Source: Corynebacterium yudongzhengii (GTDB lineage: Bacteria; Actinomycetota; Actinomycetes; Mycobacteriales; Mycobacteriaceae). Taken from it: DNA of 64,000 bases. The stretch's first letter is position 1. Every line of letters begins with the position of its first letter. The notes below the pieces were generated by a model, which searched no databases, was not told where the DNA came from, and worked only from the letters and a program-made list of their open reading frames with translations. Positions 5,475 through 57,921 of the stretch are shown here, piece by piece. Both the position numbers and the translations under genes were made by a program. The stretch is from NCBI RefSeq assembly GCF_003065405.1, contig NZ_CP026947.1, forward strand, positions 124,001-188,000, in the 5' to 3' direction.

Positions 5475-5572
5475 GCGCTATCGCTGGTCGAATTCACCCG
5501 CATAGAAAGGAGTGCTCCTTTCGACCTCGCGGGACTCGTTTATGAGCGCCTCCTTTCGACCAGCGCAAGCGC
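5475..5572. repeat. Palindromic repeat, copy A (98 bp)
   Basis: One of seven related intergenic elements in this window. The outer arms are GCGCTATCGCTGGTCGAA and the complement of TTCGACCAGCGCAAGCGC. The interior contains GACCTCGCGGGACTCG and CTCCTTTCGACC. It lies between the converging gltS and moeB-like genes. The rest of 5211-5841 contains copy B and the small remnant at 5214-5380, and otherwise nothing recognisable. Confidence 0.85.
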
Positions 5573-5706
5573 ACTATGGTGGTTGGTCTTGCGGATGCCC
5601 CTGCGAGGAGCTGGCGAGGTTAGGGGTGGGACTGATGGGGCTGGCGGGGCTGATGGGGTGGCCGGACCGTGGCATTGCGCGTCAGTGCCGAACGGCCATT
5701 CATGCC

Positions 5707-5804
5707 ACGCTAACGCTGGTCGAATTCACCCGTATAGAAAGGAGTGCTCCTTTCGGCCGCGTGGGACTCGTTTATGGGCGCCTCCTTTCGACCAGCGCAA
5801 GCGC
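5707..5804. repeat. Palindromic repeat, copy B (98 bp)
   Basis: Same architecture and length as copy A, 134 bases downstream of it in the same orientation. The outer arms are ACGCTAACGCTGGTCGAA and TTCGACCAGCGCAAGCGC. It differs from copy A at scattered positions, for example GGCCGCGTGGGACTCG in the interior. Confidence 0.85.
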
Positions 5805-13251: not shown

Positions 13252-13412
13252 GCGTTGAGGTTCTGTTGGGGTTCTGGGACTGGGGTCGATCCGGCTCCGG
13301 TAGGTGACGCGCGAGACTGGTGGGGCGAATGCGTCTGGTGGGGTGGCCGATCGGCGGCGGTGCGCCTTCCTCTGGTGGATCTCTCGTGGTGCCAGGCACG
13401 TAGCGCTATGCG

Positions 13413-13510
13413 GCGCTATCGCTGGTCGAAAGGGACCACCCCTAAAGGAGACCTGCTTTCGACCGCGCGGGACTCGTTTCTATAAGGGTGATTTCGACCA
13501 GCGATACCGC
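13413..13510. repeat. Palindromic repeat, copy C (98 bp)
   Basis: Outer arms are GCGCTATCGCTGGTCGAA and TTCGACCAGCGATACCGC, exactly 98 bp like copies A, B and G. The interior has CTGCTTTCGACCGCGCGG, the closest match in this window to the broken target site of the IS110 element at 41459. The 160 bases between the tRNA terminator and this repeat show nothing recognisable. Confidence 0.85.
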
Positions 13511-13529
13511 GGCATGACTCCGCAGGCGG

Positions 13530-17315: not shown

Positions 17316-17423
17316 GCGCTTACGCTGGTCGAAAGCACCCTCTCGGAAAGGAGTCCTGCGAAGTCGAAAGGAGGCCTGTTTGTGGGGTCCTTTCGTGTGG
17401 GTGAATTCGACCAGCGCAAGAGC
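17316..17423. repeat. Palindromic repeat, copy D (108 bp, internally diverged)
   Basis: Outer arms are GCGCTTACGCTGGTCGAA and TTCGACCAGCGCAAGAGC. The interior is longer and rearranged compared with the 98-bp copies, including an extra GTCGAAAGGAGG block. Confidence 0.75.
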
Positions 17424-40720: not shown

Positions 40721-40786
40721 AACGCGGTGACACGCGAGCTTGTAGACTGGCGCGGGCAAAGAACCCAACAGACGAAAGGCACAAAC

Positions 40787-41140
40787 ATGACCGAGCCGCA
40801 GGGTGGACAGCAGCCCGACATGAACGAGCTCATCGCCCGCGCCACCGAGGTGCAGTCTCAGCTGCAGAAGGCCCAGGAAGAGATTCTGCAGACCGAGGTC
40901 ACCGGTACCGCCGGCAACGGCCTCGTCACCATCACCATGACCGGTGGGGCAGAGGTCAAGGGCATCACGATCGACCCGAAGGTCGTCGATCCCGATGACG
41001 TCGAGACCCTGCAGGACCTCGTGCTCGGCGCCTTCCAGGACGGCCACGCCAAGGCCGGCAAGATGGCCGAGGAGAAGATCGGCCCGTTCGCCCAGGGTGG
41101 CGGCGCGCCGGGCGGTGACCTCGGCTCGCTGTTCGGCTAA
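40787..41140 (+). CDS. YbaB/EbfC-family nucleoid-associated protein
   Basis: This 117-residue small DNA-binding protein has the YbaB core QLQKAQEEILQTEVTGTAGNG, VTITMTGGAEVKGITIDPKV and LQDLVLGAFQDGHAKAGKMAEEKIGP. It lies between dnaX and recR as in most bacteria; here the IS110/IS256 nest separates it from recR. ATG 40787 follows GAAAGG. The following 41141-41410 bases carry a GGGCCC...GGGCCC hairpin just after the stop and no gene. Confidence 0.92.
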   Translation: MTEPQGGQQPDMNELIARATEVQSQLQKAQEEILQTEVTGTAGNGLVTITMTGGAEVKGITIDPKVVDPDDVETLQDLVLGAFQDGHAKAGKMAEEKIGPFAQGGGAPGGDLGSLFG

Positions 41141-41410
41141 ACGTTTCCTTGGGCCCTTTCTGTGGGCCCGCGTTTCGACTCCCGTTGGCGCTTTCGTGGC
41201 GCTGACGGGGGCTTTTGTGGTTTCGGCGCTGGTTTTTGGGCTTATGGGGCATCTGACGTGGGTCCGCCTTGTTGCCGCACAAACCCTTGAAGGAAGATGC
41301 TTGTAGGGCGCGTCCTTCAAGGTTCGCCCTTCAAGCATTTGTGTTCGGAGCGCTACAGAAGGGCCAGGAACCAACCGCGACCCCCACTGAGTCCCCCTCA
41401 TCCGCATAGA

Positions 41411-41458
41411 GCGCTAGCGCTGGTCGAATTCACCCTCATAGAAAGGACTACTGTTTTC
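41411..41458. repeat. Palindromic repeat copy E, left half
   Basis: GCGCTAGCGCTGGTCGAATT and CATAGAAAGGACTACTGTTTTC match the left side of copies A and B. The repeat stops at 41458, where the IS110-family element begins, and resumes at 44308. Confidence 0.85.
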
Positions 41459-41755
41459 ACTATGTTCTTGTGAGGTTTGATCCCCGGCCCCAACCCACCC
41501 GGGTTTACAGGCCAGGGGAACAACCCTCCTAGTGCCCCCTAGTGGTAGCACTAGGTAGGACAGTCAGCCTGACCCAACTGATTTCTAGCGTCACCACCTG
41601 TCGTGACTGCTTTTTGGTCGACCTGTCGACTGACTGTCTCACAGCGTGACAAAGCGGACATCATGTCCTCATAGGAGTTTGAATCCTTGTTCCCAATAGT
41701 GAACTGACTGATGCCCGCTTTGTAACGCACCTTGAAAACAGAAAAACAAGGAGCG
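41459..41755 (+). ncRNA. Candidate IS110 bridge RNA region
   Basis: IS110-type elements encode a structured bridge RNA in the non-coding end next to the transposase, with loops that pair to target and donor DNA. This ~300-base end has no gene. It contains a perfect hairpin CCTAGTGC/GCACTAGG (41528-41535/41548-41555). It also contains a pairable GTCAC/GTGAC segment (41590-41650) enclosing CTGCTTTTTGGTCGACC. GGTCGA there is complementary to TCGACC at the right half-target, and CTGCTTTT resembles CTGTTTTC at the left half-target. Boundaries and folding are inferred by eye. Confidence 0.45.
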
Positions 41756-41763
41756 TCACCGCC

Positions 41764-43205
41764 GAGGGTGTCAGGAAATTTGTGTGTGAGGCTCTGATCC
41801 AGAAGGAGTTTCACCGATAATGACAACGGTGACAACGAAGAAAAACCATGACCAGGACAAGGTCAACGAGATCAGCGAGAAGCTGATGGAAAATCCTGAG
41901 CTCGCCAAGCTGATTGGCGAGTTGTCGACGTCCACCGATAACGCCAGCGACCTGGTCAAAGCCCTGTTGCAGGCATCGATTAACGCTGGTTTTGCAGGCG
42001 GAAATGGATGCCCATTTGGGCTACGGTCATTCCGACCGGACGATGAAGGCCCAGGTTGAACCAACACAGGGTAGTAACCACCGCAACGGGTCGTAGACCA
42101 AGACCGTCAATTCTGGGCACGGCGCGTTGGAAGGGATCGTGCCCAGGGATCGTTCCGGCACGTTTACTGCCCAGATGGTGCCCAAGGGCTCACGCCGGCT
42201 GACAGAGCTCGATGACATGATCATCTCGCTGTACGCCGGTGGGATGACAGTGCGTGATATTCAGCACCATCTTGGCTCCACCCTGGGGGTGGATATGAGC
42301 CCGGATACGATCAGCACGATTACCGATGCAGTCTTAGACGAGGTGATGATCTGGCAGAACCGTCAACTCGACGAGTTCTACCCAGTAATCTTTTTTGATG
42401 CGCTACGCGTGAAGATCCGCGATGGCCACCGTGTAGTCAACAAGGCGTGCTACATGGCGGTGGGCATCGACATAGACGGTATCAAGCACATCCTGGGCTT
42501 GTGGATTGCTGATAATGAAGGTGCCGCCTTTTGGGCATCTGTGTGCGCAGATCTGGCCAACCGTGGCGTCCAGGATGTCTTCATCGTCTGCTGTGATGGT
42601 CTTAAAGGTCTACCGGAAGCTTGTGGAGGCAACCTGGCCACATTCGATGGTACAAACCTGCATCGTGCACCTGATCCGGGCGGCGAATAGGTGGGTGTCC
42701 TATCAGGACCGAAAACCCGTCTCCAGTGCGCTACGTGCGATCTAGACGGCCGTAAACGAAGATACCGCCCGTGCCAGCTTAGATGCGTTCGAAACCTCTG
42801 AGCTTGGCCAGAAGTACCCGCAGTCGGTGAATATCTGGCGTGATGCGTGGGAACGGTTCGTGGGGTTTCTGCAGTTCCCGCCAGCGGCGCGCAAGGTGAT
42901 ATACACCACGAATTCAATCGAGTCACTCAATGCTGAGCTGCGTAAAGCTACCCGAAACCGGGGCCAGTTCCCGAACGATACAGCAGCACTGAAGACGCTT
43001 TGGTTGATGATGTGCACCATCGAAGACTAACGCGTTGCCAAACGCGCGAAGCAAGCCAAGCGTGCCGTTGAGTGCAACGGGTATGTTCAAGGAGCGAAGG
43101 CCAATGGCTGGAAACAAGCCATCAACCAACTAGCTGTGGCATACCCAGACCGATTCGCGGACTACCTGTAAACCACCCCCCGCACACAAACTATCGGACG
43201 CTCTC
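41764..43205 (+). mobile_element. Defective IS256-family element, copy 2 (1442 bp), nested in IS110
   Basis: It is the same sequence as copy 1 at 32937-34377 apart from one extra C in the C-run before the right end. A perfect 8-bp target duplication TCACCGCC lies at 41756-41763 and 43206-43213. It sits between the AAGGAG site (41748-41753) and the ATG (43217) of the IS110 transposase. Confidence 0.93.
41820..43171 (+). pseudogene. IS256-family transposase with the same five lesions (copy 2)
   Basis: It shares every defect of copy 1 at the equivalent positions (offset 8827): two T insertions, two TAG codons and one TAA. The copy therefore spread after the gene was already broken, or the two have been homogenised. 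Confidence 0.88.
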
Positions 43206-43216
43206 TCACCGCCATC

Positions 43217-44302
43217 ATGCCTGAGACCATCACAACGGCACAACCAGTCGCCATCGGCATCGATACACACAAAGACACCCACCACGTTGCCGTGATAACC
43301 ACCATGGGCGAACCCGTCGAAGACTTCACCATCCCTGCAACCGCCGCAGGCTATACCAAAGCCATTGCTGCTATCGGCATCTACGACAGTGTTGAAGCTG
43401 TCGGCATTGAATGCACCGGCACCTACGGGGCAAACATCACCAAAGCCTTCCTTGAGGCTGGCTACCTTGTCTATGAGGTCAACCGGCCTAACCGGTTTGC
43501 CCGGCGCCGCCAAGGCAAAACCGACCAATTCGATGCCTACCACGCCGCAGAAGCCGTACTAAGCCATAGGACCACCGCGATTGCGAAAGCCCGCAACGGA
43601 TTCGTCGAAGCTCTACGCCCCTTGCACGCGTTTCGTCGCCTGGCTGTGAAAAACCGCAGCGCTGAGCTGAACCACCTGCAAGCCCTGTTGGTTTCTGCCC
43701 CGGAAAACATCAAGGCCGCCTACCAGCCGCTGAGTGCTGCTCAAAGGCTTAAAGCGCTCGTGGATGCTGATCCTTCAAGCTTTACCGACACTATCGAGCA
43801 GGAAGCGATGTATGTCTTAAAGCTCGCTGCTGAGCGGATTCAGCGTGCTCATGCGGAAATTAAGGATCTAGAAAAGCGTATTACCAACTTGTTGCGCCAG
43901 TACACCCCGCAACTATTGGATATCTATGGTGCCGGGCCGGATACGATTGCGCAGTTGTTGCTGACTGTGGGGGATAATCCGGAGCGTTTTTACTCTGAGG
44001 CTGGGTTTGCGGCGTTAACAGGGGTGTGTCCGATTCCGGCATCATCAGGTCGAACGAACCGGCATCGGTTAAACCGGGGTGGTGATAGGCAAGCCAACCG
44101 AGCGTTACACACGACCACGCTTGTGCGTATGAGGCATGATCAACGCACCAAGGACTATGTGGCGAGAAGGACTGCGGAAGGTAAAACCACAAAGGAGATC
44201 CAACGTTGTCTGAAACGGGCTATCGCTCGTGAGATGTTTCGTGAGATTCGGGATGCGCTCAATCAGCTCAATAACCACCCCCAACTTGCGGAATCTCTAT
44301 AG
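43217..44302 (+). CDS. IS110-family transposase (DEDD), intact
   Basis: This 361-residue recombinase has an N-terminal RuvC-like DEDD domain: VAIGIDTHKDTHHVAV (Asp), VGIECTGTYGANI (Glu), KTDQFDAYHAAEAV (Asp pair). The C-terminal Tnp20 domain has the catalytic-serine region GVCPIPASSGRTNRHRLNRG. The reading frame is complete and ends 7 bases before the element's right end. The nested IS has separated its ATG from its original ribosome-binding site and promoter, so expression is probably low or depends on IS256 sequence. Confidence 0.92.
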   Translation: MPETITTAQPVAIGIDTHKDTHHVAVITTMGEPVEDFTIPATAAGYTKAIAAIGIYDSVEAVGIECTGTYGANITKAFLEAGYLVYEVNRPNRFARRRQGKTDQFDAYHAAEAVLSHRTTAIAKARNGFVEALRPLHAFRRLAVKNRSAELNHLQALLVSAPENIKAAYQPLSAAQRLKALVDADPSSFTDTIEQEAMYVLKLAAERIQRAHAEIKDLEKRITNLLRQYTPQLLDIYGAGPDTIAQLLLTVGDNPERFYSEAGFAALTGVCPIPASSGRTNRHRLNRGGDRQANRALHTTTLVRMRHDQRTKDYVARRTAEGKTTKEIQRCLKRAIAREMFREIRDALNQLNNHPQLAESL

Positions 44303-44307
44303 GAGTG

Positions 44308-44355
44308 TCGACCGCGCGGGACTCCTTTCGGTACCCCTCCTTTCGACGAGGCGAG
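44308..44355. repeat. Palindromic repeat copy E, right half
   Basis: TCGACCGCGCGGGACTCCTT resumes the repeat exactly where the left half stopped. The outer arm is degenerate (TTCGACGAGGCGAGC in place of TTCGACCAGCGCAAGC). Confidence 0.8.
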
Positions 44356-44481
44356 CACCCACGACCCCAGGAGACCCCAGGAGACCCACCCGCGGGCCTC
44401 GCAAACCCGGCTCACCGAAGCGTCTAGACTCGGAAAGGTTGACCGAGCACAGTGCCGGAGCGAAACGGAAGGGGAGTGGCG

Positions 44482-45138
44482 ATGTTCGAGGGCCCGCTGC
44501 AGGATCTCATCGACGAGTTCGGCCGCCTGCCTGGCATCGGGCCGAAAAGCGCCCAGCGCATCGCGTTCCACCTCATGCGCGTCGAGCCGGATGACATCGA
44601 CCGGCTCCGCGACGCGTTGGCCGCCGTCCGGGACGGGGTGACCTTCTGTCGTATCTGCGCGAACATCTCGCGGGAGTCGGTGTGCCGGATCTGCGCGGAT
44701 TCTGGTCGGGACGCATCGGTGATCTGCGTCGTCGAGGAGGCCAAGGACATTCAGGTCATCGAGCGCACGGGTGAGTACAACGGTCGTTATCACGTCCTCG
44801 GCGGGGCCCTGGACCCGCTGTCGAACGTCGGGCCGAAGGACCTGACGTTCGCTCAGCTGCTGCAGCGCATCGGCGGGGTGCTCAAAGACAAAGAGCTCGC
44901 GGACTCGACCCCGGAGCACCCGCTGTACGCCGACGCCCCCGAGATCAACGAGGTCATCATCGCCACCGACCCGAACACGGAGGGCGAGGCGACCGCCTCG
45001 TACCTGGGAAGGCTGCTGCGGGACTTCCCGGATCTCACCGTGACGCGGCTGGCCTCCGGGATCCCGCTGGGCGGCGATCTCGAGTTCGTCGACGAGCTCA
45101 CGCTCTCCCGGGCGCTCAGCGGCCGTCGCGCGCTCTAA
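44482..45138 (+). CDS. recR: Recombination protein RecR
   Basis: This 218-residue protein acts with RecF/RecO in loading RecA at gaps. Domains in order: helix-hairpin-helix [21 protein letters not shown]4 zinc finger [18 protein letters not shown] (about 56-73), TOPRIM with [14 protein letters not shown], and the [15 protein letters not shown] region. The start at 44482 follows AAGGGGAG and gives [11 protein letters not shown]; an in-frame start 30 bases upstream is less likely. In other corynebacteria recR follows ybaB directly. Confidence 0.95.
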
Positions 45139-57615: not shown

Positions 57616-57712
57616 GTCGAAAGGAGGCGGTCGAAAGGGCTGCTGGTTTGGACTTCGTTTCGACCGCGTGGGACTCGTTTCGGTGGGGATGATTTCGACC
57701 AGCGTAAGCGCA
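57616..57712. repeat. Palindromic repeat, copy F (left arm diverged)
   Basis: The right part GACCGCGTGGGACTCG and TTTCGACCAGCGTAAGCGC is clear. The left arm is replaced by repeated GTCGAAAGGA and GGTCGAAAGGG blocks, resembling the rearranged interior of copy D. Confidence 0.7.
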
Positions 57713-57823
57713 ACATGGGGGTCCGGAGGGGCTGGCGCTTATGGTGGTCTGCCGGTCGCCCCATCTGTCCCATCGGTCACTCCTGTGGGGTCCCGCAGTC
57801 CGTCACGTCTACCCGGCCATGTA

Positions 57824-57921
57824 GCGCTATCGCTGGTCGAAAGGAGCCACTCCTAAAGGGCTACTCGTTTCGACCTCGCGAGACTCCTTTCTATGAGGGT
57901 CCTTTCGACCAGCGAAAGCGC
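57824..57921. repeat. Palindromic repeat, copy G (98 bp)
   Basis: Outer arms are GCGCTATCGCTGGTCGAA and TTCGACCAGCGAAAGCGC, with GACCTCGCGAGACTCC inside. It lies 112 bases after copy F between converging katA and mrpG. The bases from 57930 to 58003 are a C/A-rich run of AACCC(A)-type short repeats without a gene. Confidence 0.85.

Follow-up and report, generated by a model that had tools for sequence, protein, structure and literature searches.

A putative bridge RNA in an IS110-group element of Corynebacterium yudongzhengii, with guides resembling a dispersed host palindromic repeat

Insertion sequences of the IS110 group carry a bridge RNA in their left end, with a left guide of nine bases and, in some relatives, longer right guides; zero to two guide mismatches are usual, and IS621 targets REP sequences, as set out in parts of two reports (PMC11208160, PMC11208158). 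Earlier, in 2006, the IS110 elements ISPa11, ISPpu9, ISPpu10 and ISRm19 were listed, in one part of a further report, as inserting in extragenic palindromes (PMC1525189). Here, we describe a locus of C. yudongzhengii, whose single-contig genome comprises 2,511,302 bases. The window, i.e., the whole 64 kb stretch of DNA that was analysed, corresponds to bases 124001-188000 of this genome, and all coordinates below refer to the window unless a genome position is evident. Our analyses make it highly probable that positions 41459-44307 constitute an IS110-group insertion sequence and that the guides of a bridge RNA in its left end describe a TC-core site in a palindromic repeat of the host.

Boundaries and coding content of the element

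The element (41459..44307, + strand) sits between a YbaB-family gene (40727-41140) and recR (44452-45138) and divides one copy of the host repeat into a left part (41340..41458, +) and a right part (44308..44356, +), both of which were recognized by their matches elsewhere in the genome. When the own genome was searched with the flanks, the repeat matches of the left flank never extended past 41458 (...CTGTTTTC, 41451-41458), and those of the right flank mostly started at 44305-44308, with TCGACC from 44308; thus, the element spans 41459-44307 with TC at both junctions, in agreement with the original prediction that TC is the shared core. When the two flanks are joined, their alignment with other copies of the repeat continues across the centre. 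The insertion point reads ...ACTGTTTTC/GACCG..., i.e., TTTC/GACC within the dispersed palindromic repeat, so that the TC core forms the final two bases of the left target ACTGTTTTC (41450..41458, +) and the first two bases of the right target TCGACCG (44308..44314, +). A two-base core at both junctions, with no need for terminal inverted repeats, is characteristic of the IS110 group, as is a left non-coding end longer than the right one with the RNA to the left of the gene. The right end finishes approximately 5 bases past the recombinase stop codon, and the long, RNA-bearing right end of the IS1111 group was not found, as the sole match of the RNA model in the window lies in the left end. A second palindrome (CACAAACCCTTGAAGG...CTTCAAGCATTTGTG) was observed at 41278-41343, to the left of the repeat copy, and a similar one lies beside the relic at 2239.7k (L062) described below. 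In addition, several relatives (L003, L004, L006 and the elements of G027, G110, G119 and G220) have CC or AC before the left end and TC at the right junction, which would fit a core whose second base alone is fixed.

The recombinase gene (43217..44302, +) is an open frame of 361 aa with both domains expected of the IS110 group above the Pfam cut-off, the DEDD/RuvC-like PF01548 (6e-27) and the C-terminal serine domain PF02371 (6.2e-19), and its sequence matches that of IS621 with an E value of 1.6e-11. When the protein is aligned with IS621, the motifs containing D16, E65, D103, D106 and S277 correspond, and we take these residues to have the DEDD and serine roles of an IS110-type recombinase. 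An IS256/Mutator-type element (41764..43205, +) with imperfect inverted ends lies inside the left end of the IS110 element and is flanked by the 8-base repeat TCACCGCC at 41756-41763 and 43206-43213. Its transposase gene is broken: no open frame spans 41764-43205, and the piece matching Pfam (PF00872) is only 187 aa long. This insert separates the bridge-RNA region from the recombinase gene while interrupting neither, and it would place them at a large distance from each other in any transcript. The IS110 relic at 2239.7k crosses the corresponding insertion point without an insert.

The left-end RNA and its guides

A covariance model was built from the left ends of seven relatives, aligned without the window, with a structure from RNAalifold. 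As anticipated by the original prediction of a bridge RNA upstream of the recombinase, this model matched 41558..41729 (+) with 98.2 bits (E 5.8e-18), which was its only match in the 64 kb window at E up to 10. Among 37 sources, i.e., the window, two relic loci and 34 relatives (seven of which had trained the model), 36 contained a match at E up to 1, and none was found at this threshold in L169. In the 33 aligned matches (32 distinct), 90.0% of the pair cells were standard, against 36-42% with slid partners, and two-sided changes were found in 228 pair cells, against a shuffled mean of 71.3; these figures are favoured by the alignment itself having been fitted to the structure. A Rfam search of 40900-44700 returned two weak matches to unrelated families, both below the gathering score. 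Two of the matching loci have an unusual arrangement. The IS110 locus of Rhodococcoides kyotonense (L012) contains two bridge-RNA matches, at 1984-2160 and 2310-2486, with 90.7 bits each. In a contig labelled Vibrio cholerae (L020), the IS110 recombinase is 49% identical to that of the window, and the strong bridge-RNA match is on the other strand and not upstream of the recombinase match; this is possibly a foreign contig within the V. cholerae assembly.

Two stem-loops make up the matched region. The target-binding stem-loop (41560..41637, +) was recognized from the fold and from a consensus structure with two-sided changes, and the donor-binding stem-loop (41644..41728, +) from its fold, with a z value of -5.75 for 41640-41732 and 20-base arms that are 90% complementary. 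The donor loop matches the joined ends of the element, as in described bridge RNAs: the left donor guide ATAGGAGT (41671..41678, +) is identical in 8/8 letters to the right end at 44299-44306, and the right donor guide AATAGTGA (41695..41702, +) agrees in 7/8 with CATAGTGA, the complement of the core plus the left end. The original prediction placed the target guides in the loops of the folded RNA. This held for the family consensus structure, where both are unpaired, but not entirely when the window sequence was folded by itself: its minimum-energy structure has both stem-loops, with parts of the two target guides weakly paired to each other in a five-pair helix. When the pieces of the C. hylobatis RNA were folded as single sequences, no clear loops emerged, and 128/200 and 157/200 shuffles folded equally well.

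The positions of the target guides were fixed on the C. hylobatis element. Its left guide, the nine bases starting one after GACCC, is CGGCTCTTC, identical in 9/9 to its own left target, and its right guide, the seven bases before CCTGTCG, is ATCCGGA, the reverse complement of its right target TCCGGAT. At the homologous positions, the window element carries the putative left guide ACTGATTTC (41577..41585, +) and the putative right guide TGGTCGA (41615..41621, +). Both fit the occupied site, as expected of a target-binding loop: the left guide is identical to the left target in 8/9, and the right guide is complementary to the right target in 6/7, the seventh pair being a G-U wobble. The pairing of GGTCGA with TCGACC, on which the original prediction was built, is recovered here: GGTCGA, at 41616-41621, falls within the right target guide, and TCGACC is its reverse complement. 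The longer string CTGCTTTTTGGTCGACC reported for the region upstream of the recombinase was located at 41607-41623, its single occurrence in the 2,511,302-base genome.

The correspondence between guides and targets extends across the relatives. Guide rules were applied to 60 loci, namely 19 genome-contig, 28 other-genome and 12 plasmid loci and the window. The right-guide rule, whose anchor was too narrow in a first version and was widened for this test, yielded a guide and a right end from 16 of the 60 loci (13 distinct pairs), and the guides matched their own targets at a mean of 4.23 of 5 variable positions, compared with 1.45 when swapped; 0 of 100,000 permutations did as well. With the left-guide rule (34/60 loci, 25 distinct pairs, a count that includes the misplaced left-end anchors of L005, L008/L009/L013, L018, L021 and L092, with scores of 0-3), the mean was 6.8 of 9 for own targets and 3.6 for others, again with 0 of 100,000 permutations. 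Reading the guides from the model columns in the 33 matches needs no anchors. By this reading, the flank immediately upstream contained the left guide at 7/9 or better in 22 of 23 distinct cases (95/506 with swapped guides), and the right guide reached 6/7 or better in 19 of 27 distinct pairs (13/694 with swapped guides). The poor fits were 1/7 in L018 and 4/7 in L168 and L172 for the right guide, and 6/9 in L010 and L015 for the left guide; in the R. kyotonense locus, the left guide was present at 9/9 in the flank of the first match and at best at only 5/9 in that of the second. All of these tests overstate the significance somewhat, as related elements are not independent.

The right end ATAGGAGTGTC is common to the elements of C. 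hylobatis, a Rhodococcus pyridinivorans plasmid and a Kocuria rosea plasmid. In all three of these relatives the left guide is CGGCTCTTC, the left targets match it in 9, 9 and 7 of 9, and the right guides match in 7, 6 and 7 of 7, respectively. The Kocuria element has the left end ATTATG instead of ACTATG, and its donor loop carries the matching change. The window element differs from these three nearest relatives in guide and target together. Since the three share another guide and another target, the window lineage appears to have been reprogrammed, and their common guide suggests that the switch would have started from a CGGCTCTTC-type guide.

The host repeat and the other copies of the element

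Together, the target guides spell ACTGATTTCGACCA, a 14-mer equivalent to ACTGATTTC/GACCA with the core TC. With at most 2 mismatches, the 14-mer was found at 193 genomic sites (104 and 89 by strand), and the reversed pattern at 2. No perfect site occurs anywhere in the genome, and the one-mismatch sites numbered 14 and 16 among the 189 of the 193 sites listed. The surroundings of 186 of these 189 sites were compared with the repeat: 180 of the 186 align through the site to at least 5 other repeat places, and the other six (genome positions 395147, 462594, 1778765, 749753, 341116 and 1718747) do not. The dispersed repeat family is in this sense the landing pad that the guides describe, as originally proposed. 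Inside the window there are two such sites, at 13487 and 57688, with 2 mismatches each, and the joined empty site likewise has 2.

The repeat itself is abundant. Its sequence CTGNTTTCGACC has 146 exact matches genome-wide, against 0 for the reversed control, and among 242 Corynebacterium genomes, including the own one, it is abundant only in its own genome, the next highest counts being 13 (G018) and 6 (G009 and G227). The repeat matches to the flanks, together with the place in the window itself, form 65 clusters among the matches listed, and 120 alignments in these repeat stretches pass through the centre of the joined empty site (E up to 1), some of them overlapping at the same place. It had also been claimed that the target core recurs in the centre of other repeats, and the example given, CTGCTTTCGACC in 'copy C', was indeed found at 13453-13464; with at most 1 mismatch this sequence has 6 matches in the window, where 0.42 would be expected, a number that none of 100 shuffles attained. 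In the fold of the copy at 13400-13520, which is a long hairpin, TTTCGACC is found close to the centre and also in the outer arm; the empty site folds into a hairpin that is less clean. Within the window, repeat places were noted at 5485-5790, 13400-13520, 17326-17410 and 57688-57880; three of the four lie outside frames of at least 200 aa, and 5485-5790 overlaps a 215-aa frame. In places, the copies are arranged in tandem, with units of approximately 200-211 bases.

Apart from one intact copy of the element, identified by a single recombinase match at E up to 1e-60, the genome contains two non-coding relics. The relic at 687.65k retains the left end, which is preceded by GATGTTTTC at the downstream TTTC of one of the repeat copies; thus, each of the two left junctions present in the genome falls at a repeat TTTC. 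This relic has a shortened target loop, with a guide that agrees poorly with the site it occupies (approximately 4/9 by eye), which we take to reflect decay, although it lends no support to the guide model. The relic at 2239.7k is partial and has lost the left end; since nothing but the 3' portion of the RNA and the beginning of the gene remains, it is uninformative on the target. An insertion of the same element at a site unrelated to the repeat, which would have spoken against the original prediction, was not encountered, with just these two left junctions, both at repeat TTTC, to judge by. With only one intact copy, target choice cannot be demonstrated from many insertions.

Proposed mechanism, alternatives and relation to known systems

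The homology and covariation of the RNA, the match between guides and target, the repeat family and the position of the element within the repeat were all established by computation. We infer that the RNA is probably made, bound by the recombinase and responsible for targeting. According to this explanation, the left guide ACTGATTTC would pair with the bottom strand of the target and the right guide TGGTCGA with the top strand, the two describing the repeat site to within one or two bases; the donor loop would read the joined ends of the element (ATAGGAGTG-TC-ACTATG); and, guided by the RNA, the recombinase would join the circular element to the repeat at the TC core. Counted against guide targeting are the single intact copy, the imperfect fit to the occupied site, the lack of a perfect site in the genome, the ill-fitting relic at 687.65k, the paired guides in the single-sequence fold and the poor guide fits in some of the relatives.

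An alternative that is compatible with guide targeting, and that we consider about evenly balanced, is that the element is now dead and its guides record a past insertion, movement having been stopped by the nested IS256-type element and the TTGCGG box. The single intact copy despite 193 near-matching sites, the insert between RNA and recombinase gene, and the right-end box TTGCGG, where relatives carry (by eye) TTGAC-type boxes ahead of ATAGGAG, all favour an immobile element; the box may weaken the promoter that would form at the circle junction. However, the RNA region is complete by the covariance model and the recombinase frame is open. It is very unlikely, by comparison, that the recombinase itself selects the target by recognizing the repeat, either as a palindromic shape or by its sequence, with the guide match being due to chance or a leftover. 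This reading is favoured by the palindromic nature of the target and by the suggestion, in a previous report, that REP-targeting transposases recognize REP palindromes through the protein (PMC1525189); however, the guide positions were determined on other elements and the matching letters fall exactly there, and from relative to relative the guide changes along with the target.

The original prediction took CTGCTTTT at 41607-41614 as the left guide, with the right guide directly after it. We regard this reading as extremely improbable, although 6/8 of the letters agree with CTGTTTTC: both guides would share one strand of the loop, ACTGATTTC fits better (8/9) at the homologous position, and the model aligns 41607-41614 with a conserved TG[CT]CTT-like stretch common to relatives with other targets. 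CTGCTTTT was therefore rejected as the left guide, being contradicted by the comparison with relatives, and 41607..41614 (+) is more likely a conserved structural stretch. Of the interval 41590..41650 originally assigned to the target loop, the right guide lies inside and the left guide at 41577-41585 outside. It is scarcely credible that the left end captured a piece of a repeat and that its repeat-like letters are therefore not guides, as might be imagined in so repeat-rich a genome, since the loop separates the matching stretches in the same way as it does in relatives with guides for other targets.

Returning to guide targeting, the reprogramming of this lineage may have a wider meaning. 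We tentatively propose, leaning slightly towards doubt, that retargeting to any palindromic repeat of the host is a recurrent route by which IS110 elements reach many harmless sites, and that this lineage switched from the CGGCTCTTC-type guide of its three nearest relatives to a repeat abundant in one of 242 Corynebacterium genomes, with both guides now close to that repeat, independently of the proteobacterial REP-targeting elements. In any case, the guide, the target and the repeat share one genome and the other guides of the relatives serve as controls, and the locus therefore shows with unusual readability how an RNA-guided recombinase can be reprogrammed in nature. It suggests host adaptation of such elements through reading of an abundant repeat of that host, and it makes an IS110 system from an actinobacterium, with TC as its core, available for testing. 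Among the titles and abstract openings of the literature matches listed, with most subscription journals outside the scope of the search, no paper on a Corynebacterium bridge RNA or on this repeat was found.

Insertion of IS110 elements into REP-like repeats is already known from IS621; new here are the different host repeat and the clear natural retargeting. The window element resembles IS621 of E. coli in its recombinase family, in a left-end RNA with target and donor loops, in the nine-base left guide and the two-base core, and in its insertion into dispersed palindromic repeats, as described for IS621 in parts of the reports cited above (PMC11208160, PMC11208158). However, the core is TC instead of the CT of IS621, the right guide fits up to seven bases instead of four, the host is actinobacterial, the repeat is, as far as seen, unrelated to the E. 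coli REP, and the recombinases are only weakly similar in sequence. ISPa11, ISPpu9, ISPpu10 and ISRm19 are likewise palindrome-inserting IS110 elements, with other hosts and other repeats, and were compared by their insertion sites. The seekRNA of IS1111 and IS110 elements (ISEc11, ISEc21) is also an IS-encoded RNA matching both target strands, a likeness drawn from its description in part of one report (PMC11187229). Closer in sequence is the IS110 element of C. hylobatis (L002, identical over 3,675 bases to locus L068 of the Corynebacterium genome G077), which has a recombinase 55-56% identical to that of the window, the ends ACTATG... and ATAGGAGTGTC, a TC core, and the same RNA layout and guide positions; however, its guides CGGCTCTTC and ATCCGGA describe another target, and its genome contains 0 exact copies of CTGNTTTCGACC.
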